The translations under genes and the position numbers were made by a program. Below, piece by piece: positions 3,979 to 36,909 of a DNA stretch of 64,000 nucleotides. The stretch's first letter is position 1; each line of letters starts with the position of its first letter. Source of the DNA: Antedon mediterranea (taxonomy: Eukaryota > Echinodermata > Crinoidea > Comatulida > Antedonidae); NCBI RefSeq assembly GCF_964355755.1, contig NC_092671.1:13124501-13188500 (forward strand). Reading direction: 5' to 3'. The notes under the pieces were generated by a model. It saw nothing but the letters and a program-made list of their open reading frames with translations, was not told the origin of the DNA and ran no database searches.

Positions 3979-6900
3979 TCATATGCCATCACTTGACGAG
4001 GCGTTCAATAGAACGACCTGAGAAGAACTCTCATGATTATACTCTGAATCTGGAACAATCTGGTGTGTCCATCCTTCACAAATACTCTCTTTAACTTTCT
4101 TCAGTAAATCAGCTGCAATTAAATAAATAATATATACAGTTTTAAAAATTATTTAGTGTGTAAACTATAATATTTTAAAACATGAACATAGTTTAGAGAA
4201 CATTAGGCCTACATTATCTATAATACCGACACATTTGACGGAAATTATTATTATGATTAAATATAATTAATGGAAACTTACCAAACACTAGCACTAAGAT
4301 GGACAAGTTAAGCATCAGTAGAATAAATGGTGTGATTTCATGAAGAAGAATAATTGAATCATCTGCCGTGTATAAAGAATCATCCATGTCAATAATTGTA
4401 CCAATCGATAAGTTAACAATTATGAAGACCAGTGTCAACAACTGAAATCTTTGATCCGATTTTTCCTTCATTGGCTCAAGATAAAGATGTAATGCAATAA
4501 GAATAACAGTTACAAACAAGGAATAAGACATGTTTGATGCTTCGTCATCTTTGAAGTTAGCGATAAGTGAAAGAATTGCTTTATTGTACATCTCAAATAC
4601 TTCCCAGTACCAAAACCGTGAGTTGTATTGCTTACAAAAGAACTTTAATCCCAACATTTCTGGTTGTACACTACTAATATCTTCGTTATGTGAGGCATTA
4701 CGTTTATATTTCCAATACAAAACGGCAACAACTGCAAGAGGAAAACCTATTACATATAGCAATGAAACAAACACGATGTTTTTGTTAGTATTGTACAGCG
4801 AACCATTATTATCTTCCAAATTCATAATAGAATAGTCTGACGTAAGTATTTTCTTTGTATGATTGTGATTGTCATCTGATGTAACATTAAATGTACGAAT
4901 CGACCAAGGACCTACGGCCATGATATTTGAGCAGGAATTTGCGTACGTTAAATACATTAACATTATTGTAATTGATAAGCATTTGTCTTTTAAACGATGA
5001 ACTGTGTAATCACCACGATATCTATTGATAAGGTGTAGCAGCAAGCAAACCGTTGACGCCAATATTAGGATAACAAAAGGTGTGGCTATACCAATATACA
5101 AAAGTGTATATGCATTCCAAGAACCAGACAAAATACACGCCGGACTGAGAAGATTAACATATCGAATAATGTCAAGATACTGTAAAATTTGTCCAACTGA
5201 TTGAAAGCCTTCTGGCCAGTGGATTTCATTTATTTCAGATAGTATACCAAGGATTTGATAGAAATTGATAGCTATCTTCATGTGAGTGAAAAAAGAACCC
5301 ATACCTGCGATACTATTTCTTTTATCTATCTGCCAAACTATGTATCCAACAACGGCGATTATTAAGATAATAACAGCAAATAGAATAATCATAATGAAAC
5401 TCTTCTGACATTTATGACATTCGTTGAATAATTCGTAATAACCTGGTAAGCATGCGCCACATAACCATCCTGTATAACCACTCGAACAATTTGCGTCGAT
5501 ACCTCCTACGCAACTTTCTGACCGTGGACACATAAACACAGCAGGTAATAATCCATCGTAAATTGCATTTTTCAAAGCCTCAGGATTACTTTCATTAAAG
5601 ATGTTGCTAACTAAATGCGTAATAAAATCATTGTACTTTACTTTACTTTCTGAATCAAATCCCCAAAACCACCAGTAGCCCGGTAGCAATTGTTGAAAGT
5701 CACGTGTACAGTCGACACCTTCTGGACAAGGTTTGCATTCACCGAATCGATCAACACGATGGAAGTTATCAAGGCAATAACAAGCATTGAGATATGCTAA
5801 TTGGTCAGTCTGTGTTCCAGACGGACATGATTGACAATCACCAATCGTACTAGCACCAGCACTGGCTGTGAAACTTCCCACTGGACATCTTTTGCTGTTG
5901 TTAAGCCAACTCCCATCCTCACACTTCCCCAACTCGTCGTTGTAAAATCCTCCTAGAATATTCAATTTCAATCAATAAATCATTAAAAAACTAACATTTA
6001 GAAATTAAAATTAAAAAATCAGAAGTAGAAAGAAGATTATGTTTTGGTTGTTGACGTATTTTACTGTTTATTTTACATATCATGTTACAAAAATGCGACG
6101 GACAATGTTCATACATTAATATATTGCGAAACTGAATGTCGATGTTTAGTTTTGTTGCATAACCATGCCATAGATTTTCAAGAAACTTGGTTAAACCATC
6201 AAGTTTGTATTCTGTAGCCTTTATAGTGTTGTTGTCATATTGGTAACAACTTAAATGAATATGTAAATATTTAACGTTGTTGACGTGCTGATTGTTTATT
6301 TCACTTGATATTATTCACACCGTAGGCCTAATAACAATTAATGCATCTGTTATCATTTCTAAATTGTCACGGTTATAAATACTAACAATTATAATAATAT
6401 TATACACTTTTATTTTATAAGTCACCTGGTGGACAAGCAGAGCATCTTGTTGTTGTTTTTTTATGGTCTATTTTTCTGCGTAACTGATAATACCCCTGTT
6501 TACAAGGCTTGCATGTATCATTGTCGCATGCCATACCATAGTATTGTCGAGTAAGATCAAAATCAGAGCGGTCAAATACGATCTCAGTTGTATTTTTCAA
6601 ACAATAACTGAAAAAGAATGTTCATCAGACTAACTTTATCCGCCTAACAAAATCAGTTTTAGGCCTAACATTTTTATTGTTGAATAGGCCTTTACCATTT
6701 TAATGTCACACACTAGTTATTCACTTTAACAAAAATTCGATTGAAAAAAAAACCATTTACTTGAAAAATGTAATTTAAATCAAAATATAGTCAAATTGGC
6801 CACCAGGCAACGGGATTTTGGTTGAATTTCTCCGTTTATTTTTTAGCATAGCATTCAAAGTCTCATTTTAATATATCAACTAACTTTAATTTGTCCAGCT

Positions 6901-9900
6901 GGAAGGGTTACCCTCTATAAATAAATTGAAATAAATAAAATAATCATCTTTTTCATGTTTGGGTGGGGCGGGGTGGGGGATACATCTTTAATTGTGTTAA
7001 AAATGATGGACATTTTTTTACCCATCAGTTTTTCGTGAGCATAGTCTTTCAAAATGAATAAGCGAAAAGGCATTACGTAAGCAAAAGGTCGTCAGTTCAA
7101 ATACCAGTAGAGGATATTCTGGTATAACTTTTGTATTTGGAACTTTGTGTCGAAATATGATGAATACATTTACATATCTATGAATATCAAATCCCAAAAT
7201 ATATTTACACTACTGCATTTCCAGACAAAGATGATGGAATTGTTGACAAATTTTCACAGTTCAAGTATCTGAAAAAAGTATTTGACAATATGATTAAGTA
7301 AGACTATTAGTGTATTGTGTCCACTATGAGTAAGTAAGACTATTAACACAAAAAGGAGAAAGAAAAGTGTTAATTACTTACACACTTGAATCCGTTGATA
7401 TGTTAGAAAAACTGTTCTCTTCTATAAAAGTGATTGGATTGTAGAACAAATACCTGGTGAACAAAATAAAATAAAAGTAAAATGGATAATACACACAGCA
7501 CATTTATTGTGTAGTTTGTTGATAACGTATTCATGTATTAATGTTATATACATGACATAGCTTTAATTAATGTAATTGTAAATTTAAAGATTTGTTAATC
7601 TTTGTTAAATAAAATTTGTAATCTGTGTACAGCATCCAAGAATTTGAGATTAGAAAGCATGTATAATGTCATGTAACTTACAGTTTTTTCATTACTCCAT
7701 TTCTAAACGTTCTACTTGTTATAGTTTCCAGCTTATTTTTTTGTAAATATCTGAGGAGTAAGGGTTTAATTTTACTACAAAATCAAACAAAAACGGAGAC
7801 CAATAAAATGTTCTCATAATGGCATACTACGTTGTTAATCCATTATTATTGCAAAGTGAAGTAATTCTGAACTATTACAAATCGCCTGATTCTCGGTACT
7901 GTTTCTAGTTTTCCCCAGTATCATAGAAATATGCCGTAATACAGCATCACATGTGTGTCATGTAAGTATCGCCTAGTATCATAGACCACCCTTAACAGTA
8001 CCTTACATAATGCTCCACATGTGATACAGATGCGATGCTGTATTATACAAATATTCGTGATACTTGGTAACTATTGTCGTATATGGAAATACAGCAATAA
8101 CAATCGCTACGTTTAACCCTTTCACTGCGGAGCATTATTCCCACCTCTGTGCGTAATGTATATTTAAGAAAAACATAGGGTATTTTAATAAATTGCAAAA
8201 AAATACTAATTGAGATAATTGTGTAATTATTTTTGTGGTGTGTGATGGGCAAAGGGTTAGTCTACAGTTAGGTATAAAAAAAAAAGTAATTTGCATATTG
8301 ATGACGTCATGTGACGTCATTACAGGTATTTTGGATTTCGTGTTTTTTATCGAATCAATGATAAAAACTATATTTTCTATAAGAAATTCTTATGGAATAC
8401 GTTTTTCCAACTGGATATTGATGAAGATACGTATAACAAATAAAAATATAAAAACAAATTGAATTATTTTTATTGTTTTATAAAAATTATGCACAAATCA
8501 AAGTTTTGGGGCAAAATCGTGAAAATAATGACATTTTCCAAAAATTCACTATAGTACAAAACTAACTATTGTTTCAGAATTTTTTTTTTTTTTGCGTGTT
8601 GTGATAAACACATGTTGCCCTATTGGGGCTGGTAAATTTTGGTTACTTTCAAAATGGCCGCCATTACGCTACTCAAAACAACTTTCCAAGATAGAATACT
8701 ATTATATACACTATACTATATATAACTATAACTATAGAGGGCGCATGATTTTCAAGACAATAATACAGCTATAGGGGGCCGTTTTTTTTGCTGGAAAAAA
8801 TTTTTAATGACTTGCAAAAATATTCAAGTTCATCGAACAAATATAGAGGGTGCTATATATTATAGGCAAATACGATTAAATCATTGTTTTGCCCATACCC
8901 GGTATTACCGGGTATACGCACTTCAACGACGTTTGTTTATACCCGGTAGTACCGGGTATACGCAGTGAAAGGGTTAAAGTGTAGTATTAGTGTCAAATAA
9001 GGAACATAATATCAACTTCTTTAAAAAAAATTTATCCTGTCTGTTAAAAACTTCTTCTTGACTTAACAAACATGCCCAGTCTCTAATTTAGAGTTATTTT
9101 CCTTTAGATGACAGGCAAACCCGTGTTAAATAGACCCCTTATCTTATTCAGTAAAATAATGGGTTTACTTACATGCTTTTCAAATTAGTATCATCAAATG
9201 CTCCATCTTCGATGAAAGATATTTGGTTTTCAGAAAGTACCCTGGTTAAATGAAATAATGAGGACAATAACTTTCAACCTATTTAAATAGATTAACTAAT
9301 ATTTGTTATCATTTATGATCAAAGAAACTCATACTGTAGTTTAATTATATTGTATGACATTTTGTAACATCTTTGTTCTCATCGTATAGAGCCAGTATAG
9401 GCCTACCATTATAAATAAATCTTAAATATGTAGAAATTCTACAATTAAAAGATAGACTTAATGATTGAATCCACTTACAATATATTTAGGGCTTTACAAC
9501 CTATAAAATTGGTTTTCGAAATATTTTGAATTTCATTCCTGTGCAGGTACAGTTTGTGTGGAAAATGCTGTAATAAAGATCTATTTCCAAGTGAAGAGAT
9601 GTGATTGTTTCCCAGGTCACTGTAAATAAAAAAAACATTACTTAATTTATTTAATTTTATAAACAATACAGACAGTTGGTAATTGTAAAAATTGATAAAT
9701 TAAAAACATATTCGTTAACTATTTGTTATTTATATGAAAAGCAACTATTTACATGCTTATGAATAATCAGGTGTCAATTATTGCTTTAGGCTTATTTTCA
9801 ATTAATTTTAAATGAAACTTTTTATGGGTGTTTTTCAAATGAATAATTGACAATTTGTACTACATGAAATTTATTATTATATTTTTAATTTATTTATAAA

Positions 9901-12900
9901 TGTTATCATAAAGACTTCAATGACTGCGGATTGTATGGCTATAATGGAAGTTTCTATTCTCCATTCATAATGATTCTAATAATATTTAAATTTCGTTTTG
10001 GATCTAATAAAACGTTCTGGATTCTTGAATACAGACATAATATTTCGCCATTGTGTTAAGGTTCCAAGGACTAATCAGCAGTAGCCTATAATTAAACGCT
10101 GTGTACACTATAAAACTTTGTGACAAAAAAAACTATTGTTTCTACACTGATAGTGTAGACAGAGATTTCGTCAACTTACAGAGTATCCTGCATTTGAAGG
10201 TGGTATAATGCAGAAGGAAACACAGTTAATAAATTACTAGCAGCAGTGCTTCAAAGAAAACAATAGAACACAAGTTATAACATTTTTTTTTAATGAAATG
10301 CGTGTCTCACCTGATAGCAAAGAAAGTATAAGTATACCAATATGCTCGCTCGAATGATCGCTTTATAATAAATTAAATACACACGACACACACATACACA
10401 GAAGATCATCCATAACGAATGCGAACCATTTGAATAAAATAGCTCACCAACGGTATCTCACTCAATGTTAAAATAACATGTATTATAGCAGCAGTAACAT
10501 CTTCTTCCCCCATTGTTTGCTCTAAAAACAACACTCCATTTCAAAGTTATATTAATGTAGATATTCGATCATTTGAGACATGTTTATGTAAGACAGTATA
10601 CTTACAAATCAGCAAGAAATATTAGCTCTTTAAATGCTTCCGGGTGAATTTTGCTGATTTGATTGAAATCCATTCGTCTAAAAAGTTTTATTGAAAAAAA
10701 ACCCATAGTTGTTGATAAACTTTGGTGTTTAACCATTTATATTTAGTTTTAAAATTTGACAATCCCACTAATCACGATTAATGACATTACCATAGTAATA
10801 AAATATTAGTTACTCACAACACAGACAAAAAACTTGTTTTAACAAATAGTCTTGCTGGTATGGAGCTTATGTTCGAACCTTGTAGATAACTATGTGATAA
10901 ACAAAAGTACAAGATCTATATCAAACGTAATACTGTAACTAGAATAATATTAATAACAAGAGACATGCACCTTTACTACAGAAAAGTCAGGCACACCAAC
11001 AGAGCTGAGAATAAAACAAACAAGAAACAATAACAAGTCCAAGTATAATAATAGTATAATAACTTACATTCTACTTCCATTCGGAACATTCGTAAATGTT
11101 CCTGTTGACAGGACAGACAATGACCGACTGCTAACTCTTCTGTGAATACGGTAATTATTATTATTATGAGAATATAGTCCAGTTTGTAAAATTACAAGTA
11201 TATAATTACATTCTATCCGCACAAATGTATATTACACTACCTTTACAGGAATATATTACAGTACCTTGATCAATCAACTTTCAACAACTTACATTTCAAT
11301 CATCCCTTTACTCCTAAAGAAGAAGGCGTTTTCCATCAGTCCCTTGATTTGTATTTTTTGAAGGTGTCTACATTAGTTAAAGCAAAATTGAAAACGAGTT
11401 TACTAAGATGATCCGACGTTCTACTTAAATAAGTTTCAGAAATAAAATCTGAATACGTTATTTTAGTTGTTAGGCTTACTTATCAGGAAGAAATATTTCA
11501 GCACCTAATTAGAGTTTTGGCGTAAACTGACAGAAGAGAAAATGGTAATATCACTAAATATTATCATCCACATTAAAAGTATATGTTTTAAACATTTAAC
11601 GTTGTATAATACCCATAGGCAGTTTCATTTTATCTTATATGAAGTATGAATTAAAACAAATTGTATACATTAATATTGAAAACAAAAAAGAAACGTAACG
11701 CAACATAAGTAACGCACGATAAGATAAGCAAACAAATATAACCATCAGACATAAAATTAGACACAGGTGTAAGAAAAGCATTTTTAATATTTTTGTTTAT
11801 TTTTTTATATTCTTATTTTAAAATAATGTATATAGTCTGTATATAGGGTATAAATGAATTATATATATAAAAAAATACATACTGAAAATAATTATATAAC
11901 ATTAGTAAATGTATCTTCTACAGTACATTTAAAAAAAAGGTGGATAACAGAAAAGAAATATAAAATGTTCTAATTCTAAGAACAGTAACATTGATAAAAT
12001 CACATAATGTAAACTATATATATATAAACCAAACAAAAGTGAGAATAACAATAAAATAGTTATTATTATTATTTGAAATAATTATATTAATCTGTTGAAG
12101 ATGAAATGAATAAATAGTGGTTAACGCCACAAAAGAGAAAAAAAAAACATTTAAGGCATATAATACTGTAGTGTACCTACATCTCATTAATACTTTGTAG
12201 ACCAGCAAACGTAAATGGTTCGATTTGCTCCAGAGCACTATCACAAACGTCGCTGTAATAATGAGTGATATATAACATTTCATCAATTATTTAGTGTGTG
12301 ATACTGTGATTTAAAATATATACACAGTAAAAGTTGCGGCTATAGAATAAAAGTATACAATACGGTAGTATTATATAATTTAGGAATAATATTAAAAAAA
12401 AGCTAGAACCTTACATGCGTCTAAAGTGTGCCCCCTGGAAACTCGTCTTGGTTAGCTTTTTAATTGGATTACCATTCAACATTCTATAAGTATAAATATG
12501 GTGTTAAAGCCAAAATGTACAAACTACTACTATACTATATCACATTCCTCCATGTTGGAATTACAATACATTATGTAATAAGTTGTTGTGGAAATTGACC
12601 ATTCAAATTATTTCAAACCCATGAAATATGAATAAAAATGTTACAAAGCAGTTTACGGTTATTACAAAGATAGAAAAATGTCTCTATATTATAATATTGT
12701 ATCTAAAGTTGGTAATTTAAAATGAATGTTCGTTTGTATAATATAATCTTCCAATAAATAAAATAGAACTTTTCAGTATATAATAGAAAATGTATATAGA
12801 AATAGAACGTACGGTAGTTGCATGCGTCGGGTACTATTATTCCGAATAACTAATATAAGTAAGGATTAGCATCTATTATTGTTGACAAAACTAAGTTATG

Positions 12901-14769
12901 CTACACTTTTGTGAACATTGGAAATAGTCAGTACAATTATATTACTAAACCCTCCACATTCATCTTTTAAATGGTTTAAATTGTAAATAGGTTGAAAGAT
13001 TGAAAGGCATTTTTTGCATTCATTGCAGATAATCTATTTGAAAAATTTAAAAATAGAGTATTATAAGATAGTCTGCATTGAAGCATAGAATATTTATAGT
13101 GTCAAGTGCATTCAATTAAACCGCGTAGGATTGATATTCAAGGAAATGTTTGGGTTGTGAAAAATTATTATTATTATTATTATGTTCGTATAAATAAGAA
13201 ATATCTGTTTGTCTCGAAGTATATTTATGTATATTATACAATACAAATCACCATGAACTGTCCAGCAATGATGACGAAACGGAACTGAATCTGGGTGGGT
13301 GATAAGTGGGTGATAAGAATGTTAGTAAATCGCATAATAATGGTTCACTTACATTCTGTCTAGTCGAGTTAAGTTTGAAAACACTCCGTCGATAGACTTC
13401 AAATAATTGTAGTTAGCAGATCTGTAAAATATATATTTAATAAACAATATTTTATTGTGAACAACATCACAACAACATAATTGTATATTTATCAAGTAGT
13501 AAATGAGAAAAGAAGACACAAGGACGACATAGAGAGCTAATATTGAATATTGAAATGTAACAGCTTACATTCTGTTTATATACTTCGGAAACTTTGGTAA
13601 TTCAGTCAATTTGTTAAAATCCAATGATCTAAATGTCATAAAATATTGAATAAGCATACATTAGAAAAAAATAATGCTTCATTGTATCAACTTAATATTT
13701 CCAATTCTTGAGGCATTCGTTGACACTCTTATGCCAACCGAATTAAAATAAAAATATCTAGAAAGCATATTAAATGTATGGGTGATAAGAATAAAACGTT
13801 CATAAACCACTCCGACATTATTTTGCTAATAAACATTTTGCCCTTGTTTGGCCCTTTTTGTGCTATAACGGTAAAATGAAAAAGGAAGTTTTCGTATCAC
13901 TTCGAAATTTCAATATTTAATATGTTTATACAGAAGGAAAATGTCTATTCCTGAAACGCCAAAAATATTTATATTTGAAACTTACATTTCTTTTAATTGA
14001 AAAAATCGAAGCAATGCATCACTGGCAATCTTGGTGAGGTTGTTATTGTCGAGCCTCCTTTTCAAAACAATGTAGTAAACGTAGTTTAAATGTCTTATTT
14101 TATTTTATTTAAAGAAAGAATCTTAATTAAATACTACTTTTCATATTCTGGGTTGGTTAAAGAAACAATTTAAAAGATCAGGTTATAATTAAATTTAAGT
14201 TTTTTTTGGAGTGTTAATTGATTTTGATTTACCGTGTAAATGGGATAGATTTTGTCAAAAGGGTAAATGTAACGCAACGCTGTTAATAACGTCGAAAGTA
14301 ATAACATTTAATGCCCCTCATTCATAATGTCTTCAACATTACAAGATGCCTATAATCTAACTTTTTTTTTTCATTTTAGGTGATTTTGATGAACTAATAT
14401 TTTAGCAATCGTATTTAAATTACAGTCTACAACTGTTTGCATAACAATGACATTTACAAAATTCGGTAGTCCATTACCAGTATCGGGAATTCCGGTGACA
14501 ACCATGGATTGCATCATGATTATCATATAATAATATAAAGCTATCAACATAATGTGCATCTTAACTCACAAATGTGTTGTGTTTTCAGGTATTCCAGCAG
14601 GTAAGTGAACAAGCCCACGTCTACTACAATTGACTATTAACCAATATCTGTTAGGAGATTCGCAGGTACATACAAAATCTTCTCCACTGGCATTGTTCAT
14701 GCAATCTGCCAATGCAAAAATAACATAGCTACAGGAGAAAAGAAACGTAAACAAATATCTTAAAAACAT
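3979..14769 (-). CDS. Gene 1: LRR / Cys-rich / multi-pass membrane receptor-like protein (19 exons)
   Basis: Exons, 5' to 3': 14769-14570, 14057-13986, 13628-13569, 13421-13353, 12483-12415, 12252-12181, 11367-11293, 11139-11068, 10889-10818, 10677-10606, 10248-10180, 9619-9479, 9241-9173, 7750-7682, 7453-7382, 7268-7209, 6607-6426, 5952-4282, 4112-3979. All have AG/GT borders. The sum is 3300 nt, an exact open frame of 1099 aa plus stop. Order: signal peptide (MFLRYLFTFLFSCSYVIFA), LRRNT-like Cys cap, about 15 LRRs of roughly 23 residues, a Cys-rich stalk (CKPCKQGYYQL, CPVGSF, YTGWLCGACLPGYYE), then a polytopic C-terminal module. It is probably a cell-surface pattern or ligand receptor. The ligand and signalling mode are unknown, and I know no named homologue. 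AATAAA lies at 3727-3732 on the same strand, about 250 nt after the stop. Intron 13 carries a piggyBac-type MITE. Confidence 0.86.
4282..5952 (-). CDS. Gene 1 exon 18: Cys-rich stalk and polytopic domain
   Basis: This single 1671-nt exon holds the second half of the protein. It opens with GGFYNDELG and CPVGSF/CPSGTQTD repeats of GCC2/GCC3 (ephrin-receptor-like) type. CYCLDNF, CKPCPEGVDC and an EGF-like CSSGYTGWLCGACLPGYY segment follow, ending in CHKCQ just before the first helix. Clear hydrophobic stretches include FIMIILFAVIILIIAVVGYI, FVILILASTVCLLLHLI, LSITIMLMYLTYA, IVFVSLLYVIGFPLAVVAVL, LFVTVILIALHLYL, LLTLVFIIVNLSIGTI and FILLMLNLSILVLVF. Motifs KIAINFYQIL...WP and RFWYWEVFEMYNKAILSL recall, from memory only, the polytopic TRP-like modules attached to Cys-rich stalks in many protist and invertebrate proteins. 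In this copy, reading past the exon-18 donor meets a stop, so the last intron must be spliced to reach exon 19. Confidence 0.88.
8113..8977. mobile_element. piggyBac-type MITE with TTAA target sites, intron 13 of gene 1
   Basis: Both ends read TTAA then CCCTTTCACTGCG, as an inverted repeat (8113-8129 and 8961-8977). TTAA duplication with CCC-starting termini is typical of piggyBac derivatives. No transposase frame remains. Near the right end two direct copies of a palindromic motif (ACCCGGTA-N-TACCGGGT followed by ATACGCA) lie at about 8896-8922 and 8940-8965. Confidence 0.72.
10141..10164. repeat. Fused-end remnant of the CTCTGTCTACACTATCA MITE
   Basis: TCTACACTGATAGTGTAGAC plus AGAG is two element ends joined with nothing between them. 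It lies in the intron just 3' of gene 1 exon 11. Confidence 0.45.
14570..14769 (-). CDS. Gene 1 exon 1: signal peptide and LRRNT cap
   Basis: The ATG at 14769 starts a hydrophobic leader, then a cysteine cluster (DCMNNASGEDFVCTCESP) and the LRRNT-type end GLVHLPAGIPENTTHL. The exon ends in phase 2 at a GTGAG donor. The same exon, with the same donor and phase, occurs at 22971-23179 and 36701-36909, which fixes the start codon and reading frame by comparison. Confidence 0.88.
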
Positions 14770-16195
14770 TTTCTGTAATAGGCTCTGCAGTAATGATATA
14801 CTTGCTCTTACGGTACGACTAATTCTAGTTGTTTTATCACGACTATATAATGTCAGAGATGAGTGTTAATAGTATGAAAATAAATCATATTTACTTCCTT
14901 CTTCCTTATTTTAATAAAAAAATGACAATAATATCTTCATGTATTGTATTCAAGAATTCAAGGCCTACATGCCACTAAGCAGTGAACTGTAGACGACTTT
15001 TGTAATTGTAAAAGAATTACAATATATAACAAAATCTATCTATACAAAGTAATTAGATATATTTAAAACATACACAACGTGTTTACCTCTATAGCAGCAT
15101 CAAACAAATTAATTATTCCATCTGCCACATTATCTGTATCTGTACACCGTTTTTAATCTGCTTGAGACTAATTTTAATTATTTAAAATGTTATCTTGTGT
15201 ATTATAAAATACTAGATTTCAATATATCACAACAAGGCCATATTCCTGCAGTCGCGTGCTCAAGTGTTTTACCGACCAACCGACCGACACAGTGAGCCGT
15301 TGCACGCGACTAAAAATCAGTGGCTTCTTATGATTGAACACACCGGACAAATTAAATGAAATCCTACATTCGATTCTGATTTAACTAACGCAGACCTACT
15401 GATCACTAGCATAGTCAACACATTGTTTTTGATTGAAAGGCAAAACATACAAGGAAATACTAAAATTTGGTGTTTAAGGAAATATCCTGAAATTTTATTC
15501 GCAATAACACCAAAGATTAAATAAATACTGTCTAGATAACGGTGACAATTCCGTATACTACAGTACTACACTTGTTTATAATACAAAACCAAAACCACAC
15601 TGTACAATATATTGCTTAAAGGGTTAAAATTGTATATACAGAGATCATATTAAACAATTTGCTTACGGCACCTTTTCTACTAGCTAAAAGCGTTTAAAAC
15701 TGAGGCTGTTGTTGAGACAATACCACTGTAATACATAACACGATTTATAAAAAATTAATAACATCTTATTGTTCAGTGACTGCTTCCACATTTTTGAACG
15801 ATCTAATGTGGTATGTGGCTGCAAATCAGTACCGGTACTTACACTCAAATATAATTATTCTGAATAATTAAACTTTAAAGATATTTTTTTAAATACATTA
15901 AAGTACTAGTAATTATTGATTATGGAAAGGGTCTAAGGCCCTCTACAAAATATTTATAAATTCTTAAAAGAAAGAATCTATATATAAATTATGGTTAATT
16001 CTGACATAGGCGAGCACAATGCAAAAACTTCGGTACAAATCTCCGCCTTGGATACCTACCTTATCTATCCGAGATGTACCGTGAAACGTATAATTGATAA
16101 CATTAGTGTTCACGCCGGCGCTATTGTTCCATATTTATATCTTAGGAAGATATTATAAAGAGTTTTTTAACAACATTTATGATTTCAACATTAGA
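14770..16195. other. 5' flank of gene 1
   Basis: Non-coding. The part at 15500-15760 is duplicated upstream of pseudogene 2. No clear TATA box or second gene is visible. Confidence 0.5.
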
Positions 16196-18483: not shown

Positions 18484-19910
18484 AGTTCGTTCGCGTACCA
18501 TCTAGGTCGTGCCCACAGATGGTTCTCGAATACACAGTAATTTCAGCGTAACAAAACTGGCGATTTCAAATGTACGTACCGCAATACATTGTCGTTTATA
18601 GAAACGAATAAATAGAGACGATGATTTATGTAGTCAACTAAAATTAGCACCCTGTGAATTACTTCCGAAAGAGAAACTTATCACAAAATGAGTCCAAATT
18701 TTTGATTTGGACTCATTTAAAGAAACCCAATTTGTGTTTTGTATGTAACATTAGGGTTGAGGGATTGGAAAGCGGATAGGTACAAAGAGGAACAATTTTT
18801 AAAAATATTCTTCATCCACTCAGTAACGAAATATTTTTTTTATGTTTTATAGGCCTATAAATTAATATACCTCTAAATAAAGTAAGACATTTGCGATTTA
18901 ATACTTTGTTTATTTTATTCATTTATTTATGTATTTATTTCTTTTAAATATCCGTTGTACACTAATTTTCCCCGTGTATGGCAAGAGATTCCTAATTGTA
19001 TTAGAGAACATTCTTTATTTAGTTTAGTTAAAACTGTCGCTGTCATAATCGATTGAAATATTAAAGTACATTTCACGATACACCACTACGACGCTTTTAT
19101 TTTTGGTAATTATTAAATAATACAAACGTTTAGAAAGAACTGTCAGTATAAAGTTTATTTGTATATAATAATGTGTTTATATATCTAGCAGTAGAGCCTA
19201 TCCACAATCTCAGTAATAAAGTTTATTTGTATATATTTTTATATTACATCTAACAGTACAAACATTCACAGTAAGAAATGTTCGATTCAAATGAGGACCA
19301 AAAATAGTTCATAGGTATTTACAGTATTGTCAAAGTATTGCAAGTTTATTCTCAAAGGGCCCATATATTTACCTACCGTATGTGTTAAACCAAGGGCTCA
19401 TAAATTTACTTACTTGTGTTAAACCAAACTCTGGCAGACTGAGAGATTGGGATGTTCCATTCATCGCAAATCAATACATTTGTATAATCGTATATTAAAT
19501 CTATCAAAATAGTATTTTTTAAAGAAAATCGGCCTGTCTTCAACATTATGATGCTGTACTCTAGCTGTTCAACCAGTTTTCAGCTATTAAAAACAATTAT
19601 CGTAGGAGGAGATAGGAAAATGCGAAGCCTCCTCGCATTTATGTGGCGGGTATTTTTCAAGATGGACATCCATTAGACAGTGTATACCACGATCGGAAAA
19701 CACCCCTATTTGGGGCAAATCGTTGAACCTAAATTGGTTTTAATCGTCAATAACTAATTATCTAACATAATTTAATTAGTAAACAGGGTTACATCAGGTG
19801 GTTAAAATCAGTACCGAAAGTACGAAACAACTTTATATACCATCGAGTAAAAATTCTAGAAGTAAGGCGCGATTTACCGAATTTTGCCCTTACGTAAATT
19901 TATATATAGA
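18484..19910 (-). mobile_element. Helitron-like element, family 1, copy C, inside pseudogene 2
   Basis: This is a reverse-orientation copy. Its 5' end (TCTATATATAAATTTACG, complement of 19893-19910) is intact and again preceded by A. Its 3' end is cut inside the terminal hairpin at about 18484, where receptor exon 18 sequence begins at once. The receptor sequence expected on the other side (exon 18 start, intron 17) is missing, so insertion or later rearrangement deleted about 1.1 kb of exon. An AT-rich insertion at about 18905-19015 is not in the other copies. Confidence 0.7.
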
Positions 19911-20273
19911 TTCCTTTTTAATTTCATAAATCACCTGGTGGACAAGCATAGCATCCTGGTATGCTCCGGTCAGCAATGTATCTGCGTAACTGATAATATC
20001 CTTGTTTACAAGGCTCACATATACCTTTGTTGCATACCATACCATATTGTATTGTAGTATATTTAAAGAAGTCAAATTTGATCTCAGTTTTATTTGTTAA
20101 ACAATTACTGAAAAAAAAAATCACATTTTAAACCACTGAATTAATTAAAGGGGGAATATATTCATGTATATTTTATTAGTATGAGCGTAATATTTTCACC
20201 AGAGACAACCCCTTCCTAAATGTAGTTTAAAGTAATGATTTCCTTTGTAGCGGAGTAGGCCACTATCTTATAC

Positions 20274-23720: not shown

Positions 23721-24144
23721 ATTTTATGCAATTGAAATTGTGTTAAAATGTTATTGTCTGTTATATTCTCAATATATGTGATCACCATAGGCGTATATTC
23801 GATCGATTTGGCTATTTTGAGAAGATTTATTTGCACACATGCCTTTGCTATGGCGCATGTCTGTGTGATTTCTAATGCTTTATTAGTTTAGGCTATGAAT
23901 GTGAATAACCTTAATTTAAGGCGATATATATAATAGGCCTATGGAAATATGAGGTAGGCTACCTTTTTATAATCTTTAGTAACATACACAGAGCCAGATA
24001 AAATTGCAATATAAAGGGGACAAGTTCGGCGTTATAACAAGTCTTTCGTTTCGAAATTTATTTTCATGTTGATAAACATGTCTCAAGATAACTGGCCTTC
24101 TCATGGAGAGAACATCTGGATCATATTTGTAAAATTAATTACAT

Positions 24145-25040: not shown

Positions 25041-25229
25041 TGATAATGATAATCTGAATACATAATCTATCTCGGGATAAATATGTTTAATTAGATTAGC
25101 ACATTACAGTGCGACGGAACAATTAGATGATGGTAGGTATACTCTAGTGACATTTTTATACAGTAATTGTGTTTATTTAGGTAAACACAGATTAACGATA
25201 GATTTACAATCTACATTTTCAAGTCCTGA

Positions 25230-28200
25230 TTATATGCCATCACTTGACGAGGCGTTCAATAGAAAGATCTGTGAAGAACTCTCATGATTATACTCTGGAT
25301 CTGGAACAATCTGGTGTGTCCATCTTTCACAAATACTCTCTTTAACTTTCTTCAGTAAATCAGCTGCATAAGGTAAATAATATACAAAGTAAGTATTATT
25401 ACAATTATACACATAATGGCCTACATGTTGATTATAGGCTAAAGTAATTAATGAAAACTTACCAAAGACTAACACTAAGATGGACAAGTTAAGCATCAGT
25501 AGAATAAATGGTCTGATTTCATGAAGAAGAATAATTGAATCATCTGTCGTGTATAAAGAATCATCCATGTCAACAATTGTACCAATCGATAAGTTAACAA
25601 TTATGAAGACCAGTGTCAACAACTGAAATCTTTGATCCGATTTTTCCTTCATTGGCTCAAGATAAAGATGTAATGCAATAAGAATAACAGTTACAAACAA
25701 GGAATAAGACATGTTTGATGCTTCGTCATCTTTGAAGTTAGCGATAAGTGAAAGAATTGCTTTATTGTACATCTCAAATACTTCCCAGTACCAAAACCGT
25801 GAGTTGTATTGCTTACAAAAGAACTTTAATCCAACAATTTCTGGTCGTATACTATTAATATCTTCGTTATGTGAGGCATTACGTTTATATTTCCAATACA
25901 AAACGGCAACAACTGCAAGAGGAAAACCTATTACATATAGCAATGAAACAAACACGATGTTTTTGTTAGTATTGTACAGCGAACCATTATTATCTTCCAA
26001 ATTCATAATAGAATAGTCTGACGTAAGTATTTTCTTTGTATGATTGTGATTGTCATCTGATGTAACATTAAATGTACGAATCGACCAAGGACCTACGGCC
26101 ATGATATTTGAACAGGAATTTGCGTACGTTAAGTACATTAACATGATTGTAATTGATAAGCATTTGTCTTTTAAACGATGAGCTGTGTAATCACCACGAT
26201 ATCTATTGATAACGTGTAGCAGCAAGCAAACTGTTGACGCCAATATCAGAATAACGAAAGGTGTGGCTATACCAATATACAAAAGTGTATATGCATTCCA
26301 AGAACCAGACAAAATACACGCCGGACTGAGAAGATTAACATATCGAATAATGTCGAGATACTGTAAACTTTGTCCAACCGATTGAAAGTCTTCTGGCCAG
26401 TGAATTTCGTTTAGTTCAGATAGTATGCCAAGGATCTGATAGAAATTGATAGCTATCTTCATGTGAGTGAAAAAAGAACCCATGTGTGCGATACTTCTTT
26501 TATCTATCCGCCAAACTATGTATCCAATAACGGCGATTATTAAGATAATAACAGCAAATAGAATAATCATAATGAAACTCTTCTGACATTTATGACATTC
26601 GTTGAACAATTCGTAATAACCTGGTAAGCATGCGCCACATAACCATCCTGTATAACCACTGGAACAATTTGCGTCGATACCCCCTACGCAACTTTCTGAT
26701 CGTGGACACATAAACACAGCAGGTAATCTTCCATCGTAACTTGCATTTTTCAAAGCATCAGGATTACTTTCATTAAAGATGTTGCTAACTAAATGCGTAA
26801 TAAAATTATTGTACTTTTCTTTACTTTCTGGATCAAATCCCCAAAACCACCAGTAGCCCGTTAGCAATTGTTGAAAGTCACGTGCACAGTCGACACCTTC
26901 TGGACAAGGTTTGCATTCACCGAATCGATCAACACGATGGAAGTTATCAAGGCAATAACAAGCATTGAGATATGCTAATTGGTCAGTCTTAGTTCCACCT
27001 GGACATGTTTGACAATCATTAATCGTAGTAGCACCAGTCTTTTGCGAGAAACTTCCATTTGGACATGGTTTGCAGTTCTTAAGCCAGCTGCCTTCCTCAC
27101 TCATTCCCAACTCATCGTTGTAAAATCCTCCTGAAAATATACAATCGTACTATAATTAAACATTATTTTGTTCTTATCGTTTGAAATTAATTAATACATT
27201 TTCAGTATATCATCTCTTTTACATGTGGGTAAAATAAAAACTTTACAATACCAATCTGACAAATATTAAACAAGCCGTTGCTAATTTCATCATCATCATC
27301 ATCATCATCGTCGTCGTCGTCATCGGCATCGTCATCATAATCATGATCATATCCTCATCATCATCATTATTATTAATATTAATATTATTATTATAAATTC
27401 CTTTTTGATTTGACAAATCACCTGGTGGACAAGCATGGCATTCTGGTTTCACATTGTTTTGGCGTAACTGATAATGTCCCTGCTTACAAGGCTCACATAT
27501 ACCTTTAGTTTTGTTGCATACCATACCATAGTTTATATGAGTAAAATTAAAAAAGTCAAATATGATCTTAGTTTTATTTGTTAAACAATTACTGAAAATA
27601 AAAAACCAAAAACACTGAATTAATTAAAAATGAAAATATGTGTGTATAAACGTAATATCTTTCTCAAACCATTTTCAAATCTAGTTTAAACCAATGATAT
27701 CCTTATAGTATATGGCAGATACTTACATAAATTGCTTGGTTCCCACTAGGAATATTTGACCAATCACAAGTGATGGATTATTGTGGCTTGTGACTGGTCA
27801 ACTCGCTTGCCTTGCGTCGTCTACGTCATTGCGTTGCGTCTCTAGTGGGAACCAAGCTTTAAGTAGATATCAAATGATGTTTAGGATGGGAGATGGAAAA
27901 GTACACAAATCCCAAAAGATCAAATGTATTTACACTACTGTATTTCCAGACAAAGTTGATGGAATTTTCGTCAATTGTCCACAGTCCAAGTAACTAAAAA
28001 AAAAAATATTAGTATTGATGCATATACAAATTAATATTGCTGAAATTCAATGTAGGCTTTTAATTGTATTAATTTAAATACATTATTCTATTTATGCCAT
28101 AACTTACACCCCCCAAACAATAAAACATTTCACAGGACGCAATCGTCCATAGTTTATTTTGTCTAAATTACTTACACAATTGAATCATTTGACATGTTAG

Positions 28201-31200
28201 AAAAGCTTTTCTCTTCGATAAAAGTGATTGGATTATTGAACAAGTACCTGATAAATGAACAAATTAAAAAAAAATGTGATGTATTGTTAAAATGTTGATG
28301 GACCTAATAACGTTACTACGGTGATTGGGTAAAATAACGAAAAAATCAATATTGCAGTAGATCGTATGAATACACATATATATATATATATTACTATACC
28401 GGTAGTCTACAAATGGCATAATAATTCTTTTGCTTGTAATACTTAACGTGTACACGATTAAAGAGTGACGTAATCTGAGTTAGAAAAGCGTGTAGAAATA
28501 AAAGTTCATTCTACTTACAGTTTTTTCATTACTCCATTTCTAAACGTTCCATTCGTTATAGTTTCCAGCTTATTTTTTTGTAAATACCTGAGGAGTTACC
28601 AACATGATCTTCTAATTTATTTATGGTTTTATTAATATTAATTTTTTTTAAAACTATATGCTTGATATTATTATACACGACTAAATGCTAGTAGACCTAC
28701 AAGTAATAAATACAACAATATCAACTTCTAGTGAGTCTCAAACCTTTACCCGGTCAGTCTAATTTGATATTTGACTTAAGTACAAAAAACACATTAGACT
28801 TACTGCAAATCTGTATTTAAATTAATTATTATTAAATTTTTAAATTTTAGTCCACCAGATGTTTCGATTTTTCTGATTTCAAGCTTTTATTTTAGACCTA
28901 CATATGAAACGGAATGGTTTGAAATACAGGTTAGAAATTAGACTAAAACTAAATATGGCCCAAACTGAATGGATAAACAATTCAAACGCTGTAAATATGT
29001 CCTATTAAGTACATTATTATTTTATTTTACTCACATGACTTCAAAATCAGTATCATCAAATGCTCCATCTTCAATGTACGATATTTCATTATGGTCAAGC
29101 ATTCTATTAAAAAGAAATATTCAACTTCTAATCTATTGACTCTATTTACTAATATTTTCGTGATCGTCACAGCTGTCACTGTTGTCGCAGCCACCCAGAG
29201 GCGTAGGCTGGCTGTTGTCTGGGGGACAGATGCGAAATTTGTAAATGTGGAACCCTCAAATGGGGCTGAGCTAAAACAAATTTGAAAAATAGAGCTGCTT
29301 AGGTCCTTGGAAATTATACTTATTTGAAACGGTTAGAGTTTAGGACCAGCCCCATCATGGCTGGCCGGCTGAGCTAAGACCATTTTTAAAAAAGAGCTGC
29401 TGGGTCCTCACTCATACTTTGAAAATGACCGGTCTTGGCCTAATAAAGTGGACCCAGCCTACGCCACCGATTAGATTCATCACCATGATACTCATCATCT
29501 TTATTATGACAATTTTTAAATACGGTAGTCATTGAAGTTACGGATTTGGTTGTCAAATTATCATTCACCGCGACTCCACAATTCCTTGAATTAATGATGA
29601 TACTTACAATATATTTAGGTTTTTACAACCTCTAAAACTTGCTTTTGAAATTGTTTTAATTTTATTCCTATCCAGGTACAAGTATTGAGGAAAATACTTA
29701 GATTGAAATAAAGATCCATTTCCAAGTGAAGAAATGTGATTGTTATCCAGCTGACTGAAAATAAAATATCATATAAGTTGTTATTTATCATTCTGACATG
29801 TATAGGAAATCGTTTCATTTCAGTAACACCAATATTTACCTGTGCCTCTCGCTTTTCTCATAGGGGTATTTAATGTATACGGTAACAATTTTCAGAGGTA
29901 AATAAACGCAGTTCTGATTGTGGTACATTACTGTACTGTATCAAGTTGATTCATTATGAAATAAACACGAGTATGTATACATTCTAAAAACTTCTGTGAT
30001 AAAGGATCTATGTATAAAGTATTATTTAAATATTGTTTTAAAAGCATAACGAACTTAGTTACACTTACAGAGATTCACGGATTAGGAGGTTATACAATGC
30101 TGAAGGAAACACAGTTAAAACATTGCTAGAAACAGACCTTCAAAAGAAAACAATGCAGTATAAAGATCAATTTAATTACTGGCTTTTGTAATAACACAAC
30201 CGTAAACCACAAGAGTTTATTTGAAAACAAGATACGCAACCAATGCTTTTCCATTTCAAATATTGACCGATATTAGAATGTGGTGTAATGTATACTTACA
30301 AACTAAAAACACCAATTAGATCTTTAAATGCTTCTGGATGAATATCACCAATCTTATTAGCTTCAAGTCGTCTGAAAACAAATAGATTGAAAAACACAAT
30401 ATTCTTGATTGATAAAACTAAAGTAAATTATTTTATAAATTTTGAATTAATTAAATAAAATACTTACAGAGTGTTTAACCAAGTTGTATTAACAAACAAT
30501 CTTGCTGGTATCGTGGTAATTTGACTATATGTAAGGTATCTGTTAACAATAAAATACTATATAAGTATGAACAAAATAAAAAAACAACACACACAAACAA
30601 ACAAATAGAGGGAGATCTCTAAAATTGAAGAGCTAACTTACATTCGACTTCCTGATGGAATATTTGCGAATGCTCCTGTTGCCAATTTCAACAACTGATT
30701 GTCAACATATCTGTGAAAAGGTAGATAATGTCCAAACCACATGCTAACTATTCACGAAGTTTATACATCAACATTATTTGACATAATATTTATATTACTT
30801 TTAATATCTTATTTTGTACATTTGTTATTGTTAGTTTTTATTATATTCAATCGAAATATATTATATAAAATGTATGTTTAAAATTAACAAAACGCCAGTT
30901 TCTTTCTTCTTTACACGTAGTTATTCTCTTAAGGTAATTTACACAACCCAAAACAAAAATGTTTATGGTACAAAACTTACATTTCAATTAAAGATTTACT
31001 GGTAAAGAAGAAGGAGTTTTCCACCAATTCCTTAATATTAGTTTCTCTGAGATGTCTAATAGAATAAAAGTTGAAGTTCTGATTTAAAAACATAGGCCTA
31101 CTTAATGCACTTAATGATAAATAATATAATATAGTAAGACGATATGTTAGGCCGAACAAGAAGAAATATTTTAGCATAATATATAATGATATCCCGCCTA

Positions 31201-34200
31201 GATGTAGAGTGGATTGTGACCTAAACTGCTGATATTAAGCGTCAGCATTAGCGCGTACAACATTAGCGACTTTTCGTTTTAATGATGCACCGTGGAGGAG
31301 GTGTAAAAAGACAGGATGGTCATTATAAAACGTCAAAGTGTTGAACGTATAGTTATGAAAAACTTTAATTTTTTCAAATAATTCAATTTTGCTTTGCAAT
31401 ATTTTTTTATCCAAAAAAACAATAATAAATATTATACATTATACGTACATTCTGTTAATACGCTGTAGACCAGAAAACGTAAATGGTTCAATTTGCTCCA
31501 GAGTACTATTACTAATGTCACTGAAATATACAAAGGGTGATTCAACATATTTTATTATTAGTGCGTAACTAATGAAAGTACCATGTTTAAACGCAATGTT
31601 AGTTTAGTTTTGATACGACGATTGAAAAAACCCAAACAATCGATTTTTGTTTAATAATAGTATTGTTATTTAACTGAAAACTATAATTAAATTAAATTGC
31701 ATAGGCGTACCTATGCCTACATTTTTTTAAATTTCTTTATTATCATTATTATTATCCTCATTCTCATTATTATCTTTATAATTTTTATCATCATCTATAT
31801 AATCATTATCATCATCTTTGTAATCATCTTTGTAATCGTCTTTTTAATCACCTTTGTAATCATCTTTGTCATCATCTTTATAATCATCTTTGTAATCTTC
31901 TTTGTAATCATCTTTACAATCACCTTTGTAATCTTTTTTGTAATCATCTTTATAATCATTATCTTCATCTTTGTAATCGTCTTTGTAATTGTCTTTGTAA
32001 TCGTCTTTGTAATAATCTTTGTAATCGTCTTTTTAATCACCTTTGTAATCATCTTTGTAATCATCTTTATAATCACCTTTATACTCATTATCTTCATCTT
32101 TGCAATCGTCTTTTTAATCATTTTTGTAATCGTCTTTTTAATCACCTTTGTAATCATCTTTGTAATCATCTTTATAATCATCTTTATAATCATTATCTTC
32201 ATCTTTGTAATCGTCTTTGTAATCGTCTTTGCAATCGTCTTTGCAATCGTCTTTGTAATCGTCTTTGTAATTGTCTTTGTAATCGTCTCTGAAATCGTCT
32301 TTGCAGTCCTCTTTGTAATCGTCTTTGTTATCGTTATCATTATTATAATTCTTATTACCAGCAAAATTATAATATAAGCCTATTATTTATAAAAGCTTAC
32401 ATATTTCTAACAAAAGATCCTTGGAAAGTCGTCCTCGTTAGCTTCCTAATAGGATTACCATTCAATATTCTACAAAATGCGAAAAATAAAAAGGTATGAT
32501 TTGTAATTAATTGATTATTTAATTATTGACTGAATTGATGCTACAGTATAACCTTTCTCTCTCTCCTCATACTATGCTAAATATAATATAATATATAATA
32601 AAATAATGGCAGATGAACTGATGAAATAATTTACTTACATTGTGTCAAGTCGAGGTAAATTTGTAAATGATCCATCGACACACCTCAACCTATTATAACT
32701 CGCAGATCTTTAACATGAAAATATTCAATAAAGAATACATAATTATACATTAAGTGCATTATTATGCCAAAGTTAAATGTTTTAATTAATGTATAATTAC
32801 GATGGTATAATAAATAGTAGTTATGACCACAAATTATGTACCGCCGGTCTCCTCTGTCCAATGTGATTATGCTTTGAAAATACAGTTGGGAAACAACTAA
32901 TTCTCCATGGTATAGTTACTTAAAAAGCAACAGACATACACTTAAGTTGGGAAAAATGTAGGCCAGTGACAACATTTAGCTGATAACTTACATTGTGGTT
33001 ATTTTCTTTGGAAATTTTGGTAATTTAGTCAAGTTGTTGAAATCTAAAGATCTGAAAAAGAAAATATTCACCATTTTATCATTATCATTAAATCTATTAA
33101 TTAATTTAAATGACAGATCCGTAACAGACAAAATCAGGAAAGGGAAAACTTACAACATGGCGTTTAAAATAAGTACCTGATACTCAATACTCGCTCTTCA
33201 CCCGCTATACTGGAAAACCCTTTTATTATTTACACTAGTAAAGGAGTGTGAAACAGCAGTAGCGAAATTTAGATTTGAGTGAATGTGCACGACGTTCACG
33301 TCCACATGGATTACAGTCGACTGTTACTCGTCGACAAATATATGAACGGTTAGATGTGGATACTCACGTTGACGTTTCAGTGAACGTATAGTCAGTAAAA
33401 ACAAAGTAAGAACAAATTGCAACAGAATTGTTTGTTTTGTCTGGTTGATATGGTCCAAAAGTTTAACAAACATCGAATATCGGATAGTGGGTTAATTAGC
33501 ATACATTAAAAATGCCGCCATTTACCATTTTGAAGCCATGTATGTCCTGAACGGTTGGTTTTAGACGACCTAAGTGCATTGATGACATTAAACTTCCCAT
33601 TAAATATGTTTTAACTTAGTCATAGGTACGTCATATATTATTGTATAACTGCTTAAATGACATTATCCTACTGAAAAAAATCTATAAACTGCAGGAAAAC
33701 AAGTTTCTTAACATTTTCTTGTTTTTACCAAAATCGGACATCAAAAACAGGGTTAATTAGCATAAATTTAAAATGGCAGTTATTTGCTATGCCATTTGAA
33801 GCCCTGTATCTTCTTAAAGGTTGGTTTTAGACCCGAAAGTGAATTACGAGTAAATAATAATAATAAGATATTAAACTTTTTTTGAATATTGATAATTCAC
33901 AGTTAGTAATATAATTTAACTTAAATTTAACTACATTTACTTTTGCATTGATACGACGTCATACGTCCACCCGTACTCATGTCAGAGAGCGAACTGAATA
34001 AAACCCTAAATTTCAAATTTGGCAGTAGCATAAATTAACGTCATAGACTAGCAGTCGTCATAGTCTATATTATAGTATCTGTATTACATCAACGTTAGCT
34101 TTGTGTCCTACATTTGTCTCTATTATTGATAAAATGTACATTTCAGGCACACCATAACAATGTAATTCAAAACTTACATTTCGTTTAATTCGGAAAGTCG

Positions 34201-36909
34201 AAGTAACGCATCGCTGGCAATAGTTGTGAAGTTGTTATTGTTCAGATATCTTTTTAAAAAAGAGTAAGAAACAAATTGATACAATTATTTTAACTTTCTA
34301 CTTTAAATCAATAACATTTTACCACTCAATGGAGAGTTAAAAAAATTAACAAAACACAGCCACTGTCACACACAGCCACTGTGCAAATTGGGACTGGACC
34401 GTTTTAGAGGTGTTAACCACCTGTAGATCCTTCACTGAGTTAGTGAGAAGTCGAATAAATAAAATAAAAATAAATAAAAATAAAGGATGATATTATAGAA
34501 ATATAATATATAAGAGAAAATCAAAAGGTTCATATACCTTGAAAAATGACCCAAACAATTAATTTAAAATTATTATGTTTACTTTGGAGTCACAAAACTG
34601 CTTATGTGTTGTACAAAGCTTTTCCGGGTATGTATGTTCATATCTTTTCAACCCTGTCAAATTTAAATGAAAGTTACTCTACCAAACATGTCTTTGTAAG
34701 TAGTATCCGTATTTGGTGTGTTTGCTATTATTTTCTGCCGCACTAGTTCTGTTGTCCTAAACCTGTGTTCTCATTGTGTTTTAATAGAATATAATGGACA
34801 GGAATTAAAAACATGGGTAATATTATATTTATAAAAACTGTAGTCCTGTATTTAAAAAAACCAAGTATATATAATATAGCCGAAGACAGAATTCTTATTT
34901 TTATAGTTATTTTAATTGTTATTTATATAACATAACCCATATATTTTATAGTTATTTTGATTGTTATTTATATAACATAACCCATAGGCCTAAATCGAGT
35001 AAAATATTCAGCGTACAGACATTGCACGATAAACAACCTCGGTAAATAGATATACATAACCGTTTATACTATCTAACTAATAACTTTTTATCATGATTTT
35101 AATCATGACGTCAATTTGATTGGATATTTCACCGAAGACAGAATATATTGTTATTTTTATAGTTCCAGGATGAAAACTGTTATCATTTCTTTTGTTTTCT
35201 GTAGAAAAACTGTATCTATATATACATTTACGTAAGGGCAAAATTCTGTAAATCGCGCCTTACTTTTAGAATTTTTACTCGATGGTATGTAAAGTTGGTT
35301 CGTACTTTCGGTACTGATTTTAACCACCTGATGTAACCCTGTTTACTAATTAAATTAAGTTAGATAATTAGTTATTGACGATTAAAACGAATTTAGGTTC
35401 AACGATTTGCCCCAGATAGGGGTGTTTTCCGATCGTGGTATACACTGTCTAATGGATGTCTATCTTGAAAAATACCCGCCACAAAAATGCGAGGAGGCTT
35501 CGCATTTTCCTATCTCCTCCTACAATAATTGTTTTTAATAGCTGAAAACCGGTTGAACAGCTCGAGTACAGTATCATAATGTTGAAGACAGGCCGATTTT
35601 CTTTAAAAAATACTATTTTGATAGATTTAATATACGTTTATACAAATGTATTGATTTGCGATGAATGGAACATTCCAATCTCTGTGTCGTTCCACAAGTG
35701 TCTATTCCCTCAGGCGTCGTAAAGGAAAGTACTGTATACTCATAACAGAAATTCGATCCTTTTTTTTTTCAATCTGTGCTGCAGAGGTTGGATATAATTT
35801 TTTTTAATGGATAATGAGCTAGCGTTTTCAGTCGCCGTAATTTAATATTTATTACCGATTAAATCGAATTTATGATTTGCCCCGAATAGAGGTGGTTTTC
35901 ACAAATTGTTTAACATTATATATAAACATACGTCGTAGTGTATCGTTACATGTACTGTACTATTTCAATCGACTACGACGGTGATAGTTTCAACAAAGTA
36001 TTACATCGCAATGTTTTACTGTGTTTAGTGGTATATTATTTGTAAAACATGTTAATTAATATTTCGTTACAAAATAAAGACTATATTTAAAAATTGTTCC
36101 TCTTTGCACCCATCCTCTTTCCCATCTCTCAACCATAATGTTACATACAAAACACAAATTAAGTTTGTTTAAATTTGACTTAAACAATTGGTCTCATTTT
36201 GTGACAACATTCTCTTTCGGAAGTAATTCCCAGTGTGCTAATTTTAGTTGAGTACATAAATCACAGTGTCTATTTAATCGTTCCTGTAAACGACATATAT
36301 TATTGCCCTGCATTATTGTACATTTGAAATCGCCAGTTTTTTAACGCTGAAATTACTGTGTATTCGAGAACCATCTGTGGGCACGACCTAGATGGTACGC
36401 GAGCGAAGCGAGCGTACCATCTAGTATTTATAATTTATCTATTTATCGTCGTTTATTGTCATGATAGTATAAACGGGCCTTTGTGCTTTCTTGTTTCATT
36501 TCGTTGTGCCAGCAAAGGGCAAACGTAAGGAAAACAGTTTACGCAAGTTATTGGTGATGATGAAAATTGCATCGATAAAACGGCGTTCCATACAAACTTA
36601 TAAAAATCATCCTTCTATTCAAAAGAAATATGTACGCCGAGCATGTGATATAAGTATCAAAATCTAAGCTATTAAAATGTAAATTTGTATTTAAACTCAC
36701 AAATGTGTTGTGTTTTCAGGTATTCTAGCAGGTAAATGAACAAGCCCACGTCCATTGCAATTGACTTTGAACCAATTAGTGTCGGGCGGAGATTCACAGA
36801 TACACAGCAAACTGTCATCATTATTATTGTGCAGACAACCCGAGTTTGCATGGCAACACACGACGAAGCTATAGAAAAGAATAAAAGTAAACGAAGAACG
36901 TAAAAACAT
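25230..36909 (-). CDS. Gene 3: LRR / Cys-rich / multi-pass membrane receptor-like protein (19 exons)
   Basis: Exons: 36909-36701, 34249-34178, 33051-32992, 32707-32639, 32469-32401, 31520-31449, 31055-30981, 30710-30642, 30539-30468, 30371-30300, 30137-30069, 29754-29608, 29103-29035, 28587-28519, 28247-28176, 27993-27934, 27591-27422, 27130-25463, 25363-25230. They sum to 3297 nt (1098 aa plus stop) with AG/GT borders throughout. Architecture and exon phases match gene 1: leader MFLRSSFTFILFYSFVVCC, LRRNT, LRR array, Cys-rich stalk, polytopic end, cytosolic-looking tail ADLLKKVKESICERW. Helices fall near residues 684-707, 783-805, 822-843, 889-911, 972-989, 999-1017 and 1030-1053. The last intron (99 nt) is a multiple of three and has no stop, so retention would give a 1131-aa form. 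Intron 1 holds a Helitron-like copy and the intron between exons 5 and 6 a 12-bp minisatellite. A possible AATAAA is at 25172-25177. Confidence 0.88.
25463..27130 (-). CDS. Gene 3 exon 18: Cys-rich stalk and polytopic domain
   Basis: The exon is 1668 nt and open throughout, almost identical to gene 1 exon 18 apart from scattered substitutions and one missing codon (KRSIAHMG against KRNSIAGMG). N-glycosylation sequons (NVT, NHT, NGS) cluster between the third and fourth clear helices. The FWYWEVFEMYNKAILSL motif and the WYWEVF-to-LYLEP spacing are kept. Most differences between copies look conservative at protein level, which suggests purifying selection. A dN/dS calculation would be needed to say so firmly. 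Confidence 0.88.
27287..27392. repeat. CAT/CGT trinucleotide tract in gene 3 intron 17
   Basis: A (CAT)n run, then (CGT)n, then mixed CAT/CATAAT units. Paralogue introns lack it. Confidence 0.9.
27736..27855. mobile_element. Short TIR MITE (TTGGTTCCCACTAGG family), gene 3 intron 16
   Basis: It has the same ends and interior as 20274-20389 and sits at the same intronic place in the paralogue. It is a shared insertion older than the gene 2/3 split and is absent from gene 1. Confidence 0.75.
29200..29465. mobile_element. 266-bp MITE-like insertion, intron between gene 3 exons 12 and 13
   Basis: 11-bp perfect ends GGCGTAGGCTG / CAGCCTACGCC bound a segment that is richer in G+C than its surroundings and has no counterpart in gene 1. 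Internal GAGCTGCT...GGTCCT repeats occur twice. A short frame crossing it (29091-29285) is not a gene. Confidence 0.6.
31740..32343. repeat. 12-bp minisatellite in the intron between gene 3 exons 5 and 6
   Basis: About 600 bp of variants of TCATCTTTGTAA / TCGTCTTTGTAA. Because the unit is 12 nt and stop-poor, long frames exist on both strands (226 and 189 codons of FVIV- or KTIT-type repeats), which I reject as genes. Confidence 0.92.
34282..34490 (+). mobile_element. Retroposon-like insertion in gene 3 intron 1
   Basis: Absent from the aligned intron of pseudogene 2 (about 21990). It contains a CACAGCCACTGT duplication, GGTGTTAACCACCTG, and an A-rich (AATAAA)n-type end, suggesting a small SINE. 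Confidence 0.45.
35215..36424 (+). mobile_element. Helitron-like element, family 1, copy D, in intron 1 of gene 3
   Basis: It runs from TCTATATATACATTTACG after an A to the CTAG hairpin end followed by T. Relative to copies A-C it has internal deletions. The equivalent place in intron 1 of pseudogene 2 (about 22695-22705) has no element and shows near-continuous flanking sequence. That is an empty paralogous site and evidence for mobility after the gene 2/3 duplication. Confidence 0.7.
36701..36909 (-). CDS. Gene 3 exon 1: signal peptide and LRRNT cap
   Basis: The ATG at 36909 starts a hydrophobic leader, then Cys residues (GCLHNNNDDSLLCICESPPD) and GLVHLPARIPENTTHL. It ends in phase 2 at GTGAG. 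It is 209 nt, the same length as the pseudogene's exon 1, and nine nucleotides longer than gene 1's. Confidence 0.87.

Follow-up and report, generated by a model that had tools for sequence, protein, structure and literature searches.

Results

Two intact genes flank a decayed copy

The window, by which we mean the whole 64,000-nucleotide stretch of DNA analyzed here, spans bases 13,124,501 to 13,188,500 of contig C2 in the 354-Mb genome of the crinoid Antedon mediterranea. Its minus strand carries two intact genes, gene 1 (3979 to 14769) and gene 3 (25230 to 36909), and between them a pseudogene, gene 2 (locus L018; 17677 to 23179). The initial annotation had reported two 19-exon genes with consistent splice phases, and independent rejoining of the listed exons of genes 1 and 3 confirmed this. 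Both yielded proteins of 1098 residues, that is, 1099 codons including the stop, and the 1099 and 1098 codons given previously for the two genes probably differ only in how the stop codon was counted. The models, drawn from genomic DNA, share one order: a signal peptide, an LRRNT-like cap, approximately 16 leucine-rich repeats (LRRs), a Cys-rich stalk, approximately nine transmembrane (TM) helices, and a short tail. In both genes the LRRs sit on phase-2 exons and the membrane helices on one large exon. The first 690 residues, corresponding to the ectodomain, contain 16 N-glycosylation sequons.

Translation of gene 3 starts at an ATG at 36909, and exons 1 to 17, from there down to 27422, are joined by AG acceptors and GT donors in compatible phases. 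Exon 1 (36701 to 36909) reads as a signal peptide followed by the LRRNT-like Cys cap. The LRR exons 2 to 16 (27934 to 34249) measure 60 to 75 nucleotides (nt) each, apart from one 147-nt double repeat, and are all in phase 2. Exon 17 (27422 to 27591) encodes a GCC2/GCC3-like stalk, with Ephrin_rec_like scoring just below the Pfam cut-off, and exon 18 (25463 to 27130) encodes the end of the Cys-rich stalk, DUF7630 (35 bits; cut-off, 27), and the membrane bundle. The last intron (25462 to 25364) is 99 nt long and in frame, so that its retention gives a protein of 1131 amino acids; the tail exon then runs to 25230. In the region from 27243 to 27623, the intron that follows the stalk exon has many GAT/GAC repeats, and its frame remains open for roughly 60 codons beyond the donor; a long degenerate GATTACAAAGA-type repeat lies at 31795 to 32386, within intron 5. 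Gene 1, assembled by splice phase, translation, and donor and acceptor sites, ends likewise with an exon 18 (4282 to 5952) that comprises the end of the stalk, DUF7630, and the membrane bundle, and an exon 19 (3979 to 4112) for a predicted cytoplasmic tail.

Searching with the gene 3 protein by tblastn delineated gene 2, which had been described as a third, decaying copy. This is what we find: gene 2 retains exon 1, the LRR exon 2, and the stalk exons but has lost LRR3 to LRR15; of its membrane exon, the C-terminal half is left and the N-terminal half is missing, and there is one in-frame TAA. The place of the missing half is occupied by a dispersed element (18486 to 19915), and the TAA comes after it. 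By blastn within the window, the element has relatives at 448 to 3213, before gene 1 in window coordinates, and at 35214 to 36407, in intron 1 of gene 3. It is approximately 1.4 kb long and carries the palindrome GGTACGC..GCGTACC.

Elsewhere in the window, ARAGORN predicts a tRNA-Thr on the minus strand at 37886 to 37957, and an inverted stretch similar to it lies between long TA runs at approximately 38040 to 38120. At 42926 to 43444 there is an open frame of 172 amino acids that has a single hydrophobic segment (MDYLLIFGASAVLLVIMGLLCC) and a tail rich in Pro and Tyr; it may be an exon of a single-pass membrane protein.

The membrane module

Pfam scans support the proposal that one gene combines an LRR ectodomain with a GCC2/GCC3-like stalk and a polytopic bundle that is not of the rhodopsin type. 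Over residues 1 to 1054 of the 1098 residues of the gene 3 protein, LRR_8 (E, 2.9e-42), LRR_5, LRR_4, and, above its cut-off, DUF7630 were matched; the similarity of the stalk to Ephrin_rec_like/GCC2_GCC3 reaches a best E of 1.5e-5 among family members. That the family belongs to neither the Toll-like receptors nor the LGRs also holds. The same stretch of the gene 3 protein contains no TIR match, and a TIR domain would not fit into the 43-residue tail. Pfam profiles gave no 7tm match, 7tm_1 included, at E values up to 10 in seven family members.

For the C-terminal part, for which the initial annotation had suggested domain and structure prediction, DUF7630, located just outside TM1, is the sole Pfam match of the membrane module. 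AlphaFold2, run on the window sequences alone without a deep alignment, returned pLDDT values of 40 and 38, too low to define a fold. Searching PDB by sequence, with a single query as well as with a seven-member profile, revealed no relative of the helix bundle and returned only weak TNFR/Eph matches to the stalk and a chance match to a cytochrome oxidase TM segment. An NCBIfam search gave nothing, and DUF7631 gave no useful match. The fungal TRP profile PF06011 matched no family locus in the genome, and none of the 37 genome matches of PKD_channel (PF08016) fell at one.

Hydropathy, on which the helix count is based, together with reading of the sequence, suggests a bundle of approximately nine helices with the N terminus outside and the C terminus inside. 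Basic loops fall on the predicted inside and the sequons FNVT, NHT, and NGS on the predicted outside, while the long variable inserts of the members on C3 (Q-rich) and C4 sit in a loop that is predicted to be inside. Both quoted motifs of the earlier description, including KIAINFYQIL...WP, are present. Down to 35% identity, charged and aromatic residues of the bundle are invariant (WxWExxExxxK, LHxxxxPxK, KIxIxxYQ, and DYSI), and their location inside predicted helices argues for a function of the bundle beyond anchoring the protein.

A genome-wide family

The initial annotation had described a tandem array. In the window this amounts to two intact genes and one wreck; what it missed is that the family extends genome-wide. 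A tblastn search of the whole genome with the membrane exon gave 43 matches, and reading of these loci puts the number of apparently functional genes at no fewer than 19, these having an uninterrupted last exon (seven on C1, four on C10, two each in the window on C2, on C5, and on C7, and one each on C3 and C4), and identified approximately 10 more loci that are broken or partial. DUF7630 scores above its cut-off 21 times in the genome, in each case inside this family. Searches of prokaryote genomes and of viral contigs found no relatives.

Upstream of copies on C1, C3, C4, C5, C7, and C10, a pattern-based scan, which yields candidate exons rather than full models, detected phase-2 LRR exons of 57 to 81 nt, with a double-repeat exon of 135 to 147 nt at several of these six sampled loci. 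The deeply diverged singletons on C3 and C4 also show this plan. Since the last exon of the C4 copy is only 35% identical to those of the window and is still preceded by LRR exons, the fusion of LRR and membrane parts is old within the lineage. In a tree, the window pair is separate from a clade of C1, C5, C7, and C10 copies, and C3 and C4 form long branches of uncertain placement. Some clades mix chromosomes, indicating that copies have moved. Birth and death, originally proposed for the array, is supported genome-wide by the intact and damaged loci, the tree, and the decay of gene 2. Long uninterrupted LRR frames elsewhere in the genome (700 to 1400 amino acids), at C8:215596, C9:8472284, C1:1172503, and C7:17627905, are perhaps Toll-like receptor genes.

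Selection and probable sequence exchange in the window pair

Comparison of genes 1 and 3 gave a dN/dS of 0.41 for the LRRs and of 0.28 for the membrane part. Both values lie below 0.5, so the sensor and membrane halves are both constrained. This constraint and the recurrence of the exon plan at six other chromosomal loci show that the gene structures did not arise by chance. Divergence at synonymous sites is uneven, with a dS of 0.54 in exons 1 to 17, which cover the ectodomain, versus 0.08 in the last exons. Most likely, this contrast reflects homogenization of the membrane exon by gene conversion while the sensors diverged. The block of high similarity ends near exon borders, a pattern that conversion should leave if, once introns have diverged, it depends on homology between exons. 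Homogenization of the membrane exon as a general rule of the family was considered and rejected: in the C5 pair, the C7 pair, and the C1 pairs L008/L017 and L014/L017, dS is comparable in ectodomain and membrane parts, in a test that favors the more similar ectodomain exons. The phenomenon is therefore local.

The array had also been taken to fit recognition of varying ligands. Of 56 strand-exposed LRR positions, 31 (55%) differ, against 64 of 171 (37%) other non-core positions (P = 0.02), an excess that is suggestive only. On the other side, the average dN/dS of approximately 0.4 indicates purifying selection, and this part of the proposal stands in weakened form.

Discussion

We consider it reasonably probable that these genes constitute a multigene family of cell surface recognition receptors in which an LRR sensor is coupled to an unnamed transducer. 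The LRR solenoid would bind a ligand outside the cell, the Cys-rich GCC2/GCC3-type stalk would relay the resulting movement to the bundle of approximately nine helices, and the bundle would produce the signal by conducting ions or by acting as a transducer of the G-protein type. Of these two outputs, the channel reading is somewhat ahead of G-protein coupling. An immune role, as proposed in the initial annotation, is possible, and a chemosensory role might likewise be envisaged; adhesion or transport would also be compatible with the anatomy of the proteins.

Several alternatives have to be weighed against this reading. The strongest, which we hold to be a real possibility but at less than even chances, is an LRR-gated ion channel, with the bundle as a remote relative of TRP or fungal Flc channels that the LRR sensor opens. 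Its helix number resembles that of fungal Flc proteins, which have about nine TM helices, and the charged residues that are invariant within predicted helices would suit a channel. However, PF06011 and PF08016 are both silent at the family loci, and the bundle matches nothing in Pfam or PDB by sequence. A divergent LGR-type G-protein-coupled receptor with a non-rhodopsin bundle has in its favor the gene structure, given that LGR genes carry their LRRs on phase-2 exons of approximately 72 nt followed by one large membrane exon. With no 7tm match and approximately nine helices instead of seven, we regard it as improbable.

An adhesion or self-recognition protein, the LRRs of which bind other cells while the polytopic part serves as an anchor or transporter, seems unlikely, if slightly less so than an LGR-type receptor. 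LRRs and Cys-rich stalks are known in adhesion proteins, and the ectodomain is covered by the residues that carry the 16 sequons, but no part of the gene is as constrained as the membrane exon, the invariant charged residues of which go beyond the needs of an anchor. Finally, gene models drawn from genomic DNA might artificially fuse LRR genes and polytopic genes that merely adjoin. We consider this very improbable, as neither the order and strand of the parts nor their splice phase changes at any of the six other sampled loci or in the two window genes; with one LRR exon plan common to every locus sampled upstream, the LRR and membrane parts belong to one gene.

The recognition receptor reading invites a broader and more tentative one, which we would not bet on at present. 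The helix bundle may form a class of membrane signal transducer in its own right, so far unclassified, that here follows an LRR sensor. The receptor repertoire would then be an expanded one shaped by birth and death, in which conversion can homogenize the transducer exon while the sensors diverge.

The initial annotation called the family apparently undescribed. Our literature search found no paper describing the architecture of LRRs, Cys-rich stalk, and nine helices and none naming DUF7630, but the domain is already in Pfam. The family is undescribed only in the sense of being unnamed and unstudied in the papers searched, and relatives are already in databases, as uncharacterized proteins, via DUF7630.

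Among known systems, the LGRs (glycoprotein hormone receptors and RXFP) are similar in that phase-2 exons encode their LRR ectodomain and a single large exon then encodes the membrane part. They differ in that their bundle is of the rhodopsin type, which that of the family does not match, and in that they have a hinge where the family has a GCC2/GCC3-like stalk and DUF7630. Toll-like receptors share the extracellular LRR solenoid, the LRRNT cap, and multigene expansion, whereas the family lacks TIR, is not single-pass, and has its LRRs spread over many exons. Eph receptors and ELAPOR1 show similar Cys-rich stalk repeats of the Ephrin_rec_like/GCC2_GCC3 type but are single-pass, in contrast to the polytopic family, which also lacks a kinase. 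For fungal Flc/TRP proteins the likeness is confined to the helix count, and polycystins find no counterpart at the family loci by profile. The link to DUF7630 proteins (PF24633) is secured by scores above the curated cut-off, but the Pfam entry comprises only 45 residues, has no function assigned, and leaves the helix bundle outside the model. Protist and algal polytopic proteins annotated "ephrin type A/B receptor-like" seem to have a similar W-x-W-E..E...K helix after GCC2/GCC3 repeats and are a possible lead. To our knowledge, wherever the output of an LRR receptor is known, it runs through a TIR, kinase, or rhodopsin-type module. Animal receptor biology would gain a further transducer type from a family that is conserved and expanded and relies on a different polytopic module without a name, and DUF7630 with its helix bundle would offer a concrete target for structure determination and electrophysiology.
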